Source: a virus
Virus record (IMG/VR): IMGVR_UViG_3300026076_000224
Coordinates: 1-20,230 of that record
Length of the DNA: 20,230 nt
Direction: 5' to 3' (one strand)
Shown here: piece after piece, positions 5,485 to 7,007 of the stretch
Position numbering within the stretch: position 1 is the stretch's first letter
Layout: each line of letters starts with the position of its first letter
Made by a program: the position numbers and the translations under genes
The notes under the pieces: generated by a model
Told to the model about the DNA's origin: nothing
The model's input: the letters and a program-made list of their open reading frames with translations, nothing else
The model's database searches: none

Positions 5485-5649
5485 ATGCGTGACAACGTAT
5501 ATGGAAAAGAAGTAGCAGCCGCTGAGCCTATTTCTGAAACTTACCTAGAGGGAGCTGAGAGGACTAATGGTCAGCTTGCAATGATTGGTATTATTGCAGC
5601 TCTTGGAGCCTATATATCTACTGGTCAAATCATACCAGGAATATTTTAA
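5485..5649 (+). CDS. hli: High-light-inducible protein (Hli, one-helix Chl-binding type)
   Basis: This 54-residue thylakoid membrane protein belongs to the single-helix Lhc-like family, which binds chlorophyll and carotenoid, protects photosystem II during assembly and dissipates excess light energy. The chlorophyll-binding signature E-x-x-N-x-x-x-A-M is at E25-N28-A32-M33. It is followed by the hydrophobic segment MIGIIAALGAYISTGQIIPG. The TGQ..PG ending is typical of cyanobacterial and cyanophage Hli proteins. The ATG at 5485 gives the full family length; there is no clear Shine-Dalgarno site (context TTCAAACAAATG). The stop TAA abuts the psbA ATG directly, so the two are probably translated together. 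Phage hli genes are thought to derive from hosts and to help maintain photosynthesis during infection. Confidence 0.93.
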   Translation: MRDNVYGKEVAAAEPISETYLEGAERTNGQLAMIGIIAALGAYISTGQIIPGIF

Positions 5650-6705: not shown

Positions 6706-6743
6706 ACCACGTCCGTTCGACTTATCTATTTAAGTTGCAGGCC

Positions 6744-6769
6744 ATCTAGTCATGGAACGGGGGCTAGAT
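6744..6769 (+). promoter_or_regulatory. Hairpin just upstream of the micro-ORF ribosome site
   Basis: ATCTAG (6744-6749) pairs exactly with CTAGAT (6764-6769) around a 14-base loop. The stem ends 3 bases before the GAGGT Shine-Dalgarno sequence of the 18-codon ORF. An alternative small stem CCAT/ATGG (6742-6745/6752-6755) would compete with it. A role in gating translation or stabilising the psbA 3' end is possible but unproven. Confidence 0.3.
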
Positions 6770-6784
6770 ATAGAGGTACTACCA

Positions 6785-6841
6785 ATGACTGTAACTCTTA
6801 CTTATCGCGGTGTTTCTTACACAAGAGTAACCCGCAAGTAA
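6785..6841 (+). CDS. 18-residue micro-ORF with strong ribosome site, YRG motif
   Basis: ATG 6785 to TAA 6839-6841 encodes MTVTLTYRGVSYTRVTRK. A GAGGT Shine-Dalgarno sequence lies at 6773-6777, 7 bases before the ATG, which is the best ribosome site in the whole window. The frame can extend back to ATG 6752 for 29 residues, but that start lacks such a site and lies in a hairpin loop. LTYRGVSY resembles the start of the small cyanobacterial and cyanophage proteins of the DUF4278 type, which carry a Y-R-G motif; this is from memory. Family members are usually longer (about 57 residues or more), so this is either a true micropeptide, a leader peptide or a truncated remnant. It lies 79 bases after psbA and 166 bases before the capsid gene. 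Confidence 0.45.
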   Translation: MTVTLTYRGVSYTRVTRK

Positions 6842-6844
6842 AAC

Positions 6845-6892
6845 AAAGGGAGAGAGACACCTCAGAGAAGGATCTCTCTCTCATCACCCTTT
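6845..6892 (+). terminator. Long hairpin after the micro-ORF (possible terminator or processing site)
   Basis: AAAGGG (6845-6850) pairs with CCCTTT (6887-6892), and inside it AGAGAGA (6851-6857) pairs with TCTCTCT (6873-6879). This leaves a 15-base loop and a 7-base bulge (6880-6886) on the 3' side. The structure starts 3 bases after the micro-ORF stop. There is no U-run downstream (TTTAGCCC follows), so a classical intrinsic terminator is uncertain; an RNase processing or stability element is an alternative. Confidence 0.4.
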
Positions 6893-7007
6893 AGCCCAGT
6901 GAGCTGGATAACTATGGGGTAGCTACCTTGAGAAGGTTAAATCTCAAAACAACAACAACTTTTGAATCGATTCGGGAAAATTATAAACATTTAATAGTTA
7001 AAAGAAA
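6893..7007 (+). other. Structured leader of the capsid gene, no coding seen
   Basis: With the micro-ORF, this fills the 302-base gap 6706-7007. It holds the perfect palindrome GGTAGCTACC (6918-6927), a stem ACCTT/AAGGT with loop GAG (6925-6937) that could switch with TTGAG/CTCAA (6928-6932/6943-6947), an unstructured AAC repeat (about 6947-6959), and the palindrome GAATCGATTC (6964-6973). The last 30 bases before the capsid ATG are nearly all A and T. T7 has its strong phi10 promoter at this place, so a phage promoter is expected here, but I could not recognise one. No tRNA fold was found. Confidence 0.35.

Follow-up and report, generated by a model that had tools for sequence, protein, structure and literature searches.

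Does the 18-codon open reading frame (ORF) lying directly behind psbA in the 20,230-nucleotide viral stretch analyzed here (the window) encode a working peptide, and does the conspicuous ribosome site in front of it belong to a regulated gene? The claim that GAGGT sits 7 bases before the ATG at 6785 was reproduced, as were the coordinates and the translation: the ORF reads MTVTLTYRGVSYTRVTRK and ends with TAA at 6839 to 6841. It also holds that this is the window's best ribosome site, since it pairs with the anti-Shine-Dalgarno (anti-SD) sequence at -7.2 kcal/mol and ranks first of the 16 starts tested, followed by psbA (-4.3 kcal/mol), with MCP at about 0. However, about 5% of random positions match this strength, so that the SD alone is weak evidence and gives no basis for a gene call. 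What goes far beyond chance is a riboswitch match upstream (E = 2e-9 for the whole window) together with the conservation of aptamer and peptide; on these comparisons, the micro-ORF behind psbA appears to be a real gene, an 18-residue phage peptide following a predicted glutamine-sensing riboswitch. The interval singled out by the earlier note, 6706 to 6841, covers this unit of riboswitch and ORF well. Its features are as follows.

6711..6769, + strand: Glutamine-II (type 2 glutamine, Downstream-peptide) riboswitch aptamer, RF01704 (cmscan 49.1 bits, gathering threshold 33, E 2.2e-9)
6714..6718, + strand: pseudoknot strand CGUUC, pairing with GAACG at 6755 to 6759 (sequence and alignment)
6720..6735, + strand: stem P1, ACUUA/UAAGU (cmscan match and covariation)
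6744..6769, + strand: stem P2, AUCUAG/CUAGAU, the second arm being CUAGAT in the DNA (cmscan match and covariation)
6767..6806, + strand: putative expression platform, a hairpin holding SD and AUG whose 3' arm lies in the coding sequence (covariation in 43 relatives)
6773..6777, + strand: Shine-Dalgarno sequence GAGGU, 7 bases before the ATG, top among the 16 window starts tested
6785..6841, + strand: micropeptide ORF of 18 codons, MTVTLTYRGVSYTRVTRK, with a single YRG motif, DUF4278-like (conserved in phage relatives, under purifying selection)

Taken as a whole, positions 6711 to 6841 very probably constitute a single regulated micro-gene belonging to a T7-like phage of cyanobacteria, in which a glutamine-II riboswitch would turn on a small, basic, single-motif DUF4278-like peptide.

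In a scan of all Rfam families, the glutamine-II aptamer was the only match in the whole 20-kb window; neither PhotoRC nor psbA leaders nor other known elements were found there by this search. The match explains the 6-pair hairpin that had been noticed upstream of the ORF (ATCTAG at 6744 to 6749 with CTAGAT at 6764 to 6769), because this hairpin is stem P2 of the aptamer and thus belongs to the micro-gene. Across 67 phage aptamers, P1 and P2 covary, with 148 double-change cells versus 33 in shuffled and 27 to 47 in slid controls. The pseudoknot shows no covariation because it is invariant in an aptamer set that was selected for it. Both the identity of the aptamer and the covariation of P1 and P2 are shown here. 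In the crystal structure, the CGUUC strand lines the glutamine pocket (PMC6698751), and all of the pocket residues (C1, G2, U3, U4, C5, G18, C19, G35, G36, and A37, and likewise A38, C39, G40, and G41) are present in the window. The sole departure concerns A6:C17, which are coplanar but not hydrogen-bonded in the crystal (PMC6698751) and are replaced by G:U in the window, in its nearest relatives L131 and L135, and in L118; this looks like a compensating change. The ATG of the ORF follows 15 nucleotides past the aptamer end. Cyanobacterial members of the glutamine-II class bind L-glutamine and act as ON switches of translation (PMC6316151, PMC6698751).

Seven phage records in which the region downstream of psbA matches or comes near that of the window were obtained by a DNA search, six of them annotated isolates and one unannotated. 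The aptamer is present in each of these records, with an ORF such as MTVKLKYRGVSYTKTLNN behind it. Scanning viral contigs by pattern, by capsid gene, and by psbA added more than 80 loci. A short ORF of the YRG type follows 85 of the 90 aptamer matches versus 1.7% of random positions; of the five others, one runs into the end of its contig and four are weak matches (21 to 33 bits). In 40 independent close pairs, differences at codon positions 1, 2, and 3 number 53, 33, and 114, and codons with a single change include 81 synonymous versus 46 nonsynonymous ones, where 26% synonymous would be expected (p 5e-19). The 18-codon ORF is therefore a conserved coding sequence under strong purifying selection, which bears out the suggestion of a working micropeptide gene. 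Leader, ORF, and hairpin, which the earlier note had proposed to compare among relatives, are kept together, and synonymous changes are favored.

The single YRGVxY motif is kept by relatives in more than 80 phage loci, and the peptides around it come in two forms. The short form measures mostly 16 to 20 amino acids (aa), the commonest length in phages, while the longer form of about 32 to 42 aa starts with VELQARxKEQ... and then joins the KLKYRGVxY end that it shares with the short form. The statement that the ORF stops far short of the usual length is thus correct with respect to host DUF4278 proteins but not with respect to phage forms. Two loci among the nearest capsid relatives, L139 and L184, have the longer form before an almost identical capsid leader, so that short and long alleles have been exchanged.

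As for its genomic place, 63 cassettes that had been collected by aptamer pattern or psbA, without use of the capsid gene, have at least 2 kb of downstream sequence, and in 59 of them a T7-like capsid gene follows within 2.5 kb. Three of the four non-capsid contexts (L058, L065, and L128) turned out to be chance pattern matches, leaving 59 of 60 genuine cassettes before the capsid gene. Among 23 isolates examined, aptamer and peptide are present in 16: P-SSP7 (whose peptide is MKVTFVYRGVAYTRVIG), P-SSP2, S-TIP37, S-TIP28, S-RIP2, S-CBP1, S-CBP3, SS120-1, 9515-10a, P-SSP6, NATL2A-133, P-SSP10, P-GSP1, NATL1A-7, P-SCSP-R27W, and S-SBP1, the last with a partial aptamer match. The aptamer was not found in isolates Syn5, S-CBP42, P60, S-CBP2, S-SRP01, S-B28, and DSL-LC07. 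Most of the cyanobacterial T7-like phages examined, P-SSP7 included, thus carry the aptamer-peptide pair just before the capsid gene. Although few marine phages have been studied as well as the cyanopodoviruses, the cassette is unannotated in most phage records examined, including that of P-SSP7. On the other side of psbA, immediately before it, the window holds a high-light-inducible-like ORF (5487 to 5648, + strand; MRDNVYGKEVAAAEPISETYLEGAERTNGQLAMIGIIAALGAYISTGQIIPGIF), which falls under the 60-aa listing limit.

How might glutamine act on the ribosome site? In the short form, codons 3 to 8 of the ORF pair with the stretch of leader that begins at the end of P2 and includes the SD. In 43 relatives, 85.6% of the cells of this hairpin are paired, with 62 double-change cells versus 24 in shuffled and 10 to 18 in slid controls, and of 51 sequences, which are related to one another, 92% have a weaker hairpin after synonymous recoding of the ORF (mean z -1.34). 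With a z of 0.09, the hairpin of the window itself is weak; it is weaker than in the relatives and does not surpass recoded controls. Since positions 6767 to 6769 are common to the hairpin base and the 3' arm of P2, the full hairpin and the full P2 are mutually exclusive. Without glutamine, pairing with the first codons of the ORF would keep SD and AUG in the hairpin; glutamine would stabilize the aptamer pseudoknot and P2, and P2 would then retake the hairpin base through the shared bases, opening the ribosome site. If the switch works in this way, a high glutamine level in the infected cell would lead to synthesis of the peptide. The mutual exclusion fits the published ON behavior and a proposed alternative structure that would hide the ribosome site in the absence of ligand (PMC6698751), although in-line probing cited by Huang et al. 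suggested that P2 is already formed without ligand (PMC6698751). Simple folding does not give a clean two-state switch in every phage. The longer phage forms of 32 to 42 aa show no excess folding with their first 10 codons and may therefore switch in another way, and we claim no hairpin mechanism for the hosts because their DUF4278 genes show no excess of a ribosome-site hairpin over recoded controls. That glutamine switches the element in the window's own phage is what we infer by analogy with the cyanobacterial members.

The position of the cassette suggests other readings, which the earlier note had in part raised. One is that it is a neutral remnant of host DNA brought in with psbA, as its place directly behind psbA in the window and in many phages would suggest. 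Yet among 65 contigs that were selected by their capsid gene and show both scaffold and capsid genes, many of them near-duplicates, 37 hold the cassette, and in 32 of these 37 no psbA lies between, as in isolates SS120-1 and S-TIP28; conversely, where at least 250 nucleotides downstream of psbA are available, 52 of 73 loci have no cassette there. The cassette thus belongs to the scaffold-capsid junction, into which psbA is also inserted, and is not psbA cargo, and a remnant is barely credible for a coding sequence under such strong purifying selection. The same junction invites the idea of a leader peptide or attenuator, in which the capsid gene is controlled through the state of the riboswitch or through the translation of the micro-ORF. 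The distance to the capsid gene is indeed only 233 to 410 nucleotides in most loci, and nearly all genuine cassettes lie upstream of it; but in 9515-10a and its relatives, about 1.2 to 1.3 kb with three or four genes intervene, and the remaining 28 of the 65 contigs have scaffold and capsid genes without the cassette. Moreover, the spacing from aptamer to peptide is tightly held while that from aptamer to capsid gene varies, and the capsid gene has a structured leader of its own, kept in cassette-less phages such as Syn5. We consider control of the capsid gene improbable, and the suggestion to this effect in the earlier note was not borne out.

It might also be that function resides in the RNA, for instance as a glutamine-dependent element of mRNA stability or processing, and that the peptide is a by-product of ribosome opening. 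Coding conservation does overlap the ribosome-site hairpin, so that part of the codon conservation reflects constraint on the RNA. However, conservation extends to the codons past the hairpin (VxYTK), most changes along the ORF are synonymous, and the C-terminal motif persists in the longer forms despite their different N terminus, which makes this reading very improbable compared with a riboswitch-controlled peptide gene.

A second, strongly covarying structured RNA lies between the micro-ORF and the capsid gene, in the leader of the latter (6881 to 6951, + strand), with homologues such as L410:2358-2433 (Syn5) and L179:3868-3942. It consists of a bulged stem, AGCC-hairpin-GGAYAAC, and a hairpin whose loop GGU/GGC covaries with an upstream ACC/GCC, a possible pseudoknot; 98% of its cells are paired, with 55 double-change cells versus 14 in shuffled controls. 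It has no match in Rfam, and the matches of its covariance model, R2, are confined to the coding strand immediately upstream of capsid genes; they occur in many cyanopodoviruses, Syn5 among them. Just before it lies a hairpin (6848 to 6882, + strand; L160 3810-3845 and others). Either its loop is the conserved CACCUCAGAGNNGGA or, in a different set of phages, its place is taken by a hairpin resembling a tRNA T-arm (GGUUCGAUUCC); this is possibly an RNA processing site.

What the peptide does can be approached through the host proteins encoded behind this riboswitch. Genomes of Prochlorococcus and Synechococcus have the glutamine-II aptamer in front of DUF4278 proteins of 55 to 65 aa with three motif copies. 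The likeness of the YRG motif to DUF4278, already remarked on, is real: the window's peptide resembles these proteins and keeps one copy of the motif, as do nearly all phage short forms, rather than two or more repeats. Phage forms of 40 to 46 aa pass the Pfam cut-off for DUF4278 (PF14105; 25.3) with scores of 29.5 and 27.0, while a 20-residue stretch of a short relative (19.1), a 33-aa relative (16.8), and relatives of 20 to 25 aa fall below it; the window's 18-aa ORF is under the Pfam scoring limit of 20. DUF4278 forms the N-terminal part of IF17 (GifB), where it aids stability rather than inhibition (PMC6316151), and the C-terminal region of IF17 that inactivates glutamine synthetase is absent from the phage peptide, so that direct inhibition of this enzyme would be a guess. 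By analogy with IF17 and the DUF4278 proteins, the peptide would most likely interfere with or tune host nitrogen assimilation, and we infer such a role at plentiful glutamine as the most economical reading. In the hosts, a second small-protein family also stands behind a glutamine-II aptamer (MNNLLQIREKIKRANRLYEAQ..., about 50 to 56 aa, starting with MNNLLQIREK; L289-L408).

It is tempting to speculate further, although we regard this as possible rather than probable, that most cyanobacterial T7-like phages carry an unannotated glutamine-gated micropeptide that acts on host nitrogen assimilation during infection and that the codons of the short form are the expression platform, one 40-nucleotide stretch being both motif-coding and switching RNA. 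The cassette would imply that the phage senses host glutamine at a late stage of infection and responds by making a peptide, which would tie infection to nitrogen status in a way that can be tested directly, and the short form offers an explicit model for the unsolved glutamine-II expression platform.

Glutamine-II riboswitches before ORFs of 17 to 100 aa are already known in marine cyanobacteria (PMC2864571). In the open-access literature searched, we found no paper on a glutamine-II cassette of cyanopodoviruses; the riboswitch class is known, while its fixed scaffold-capsid place, together with an unannotated micropeptide, did not turn up in that literature. The glnA-type (glutamine-I) riboswitches of cyanomyophages and of phages Melnitz and Mosig (PMC9964418, PMC9004378) likewise place a glutamine-sensing element in marine phages but differ in aptamer class and genomic setting. 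With marine picocyanobacterial DUF4278 proteins (e.g., PMM1846) and the N terminus of IF17, the phage peptide shares the L[TN]YRG.xY(TK) motif, its basic character, and the upstream glutamine-II aptamer, whereas it has 18 aa and one motif copy instead of 55 to 65 aa and three, and lacks the C-terminal part that inactivates GS. From RF01704 as described, the element keeps the aptamer sequence, the three helices and pseudoknot, the pocket residues, and a site 24 to 26 nucleotides before a short ORF. It differs in being phage-borne at the scaffold-capsid junction, in having G:U for the crystal's A6:C17, and in that the putative masking arm of the short phage form is, unlike in host DUF4278 genes, the coding sequence itself.
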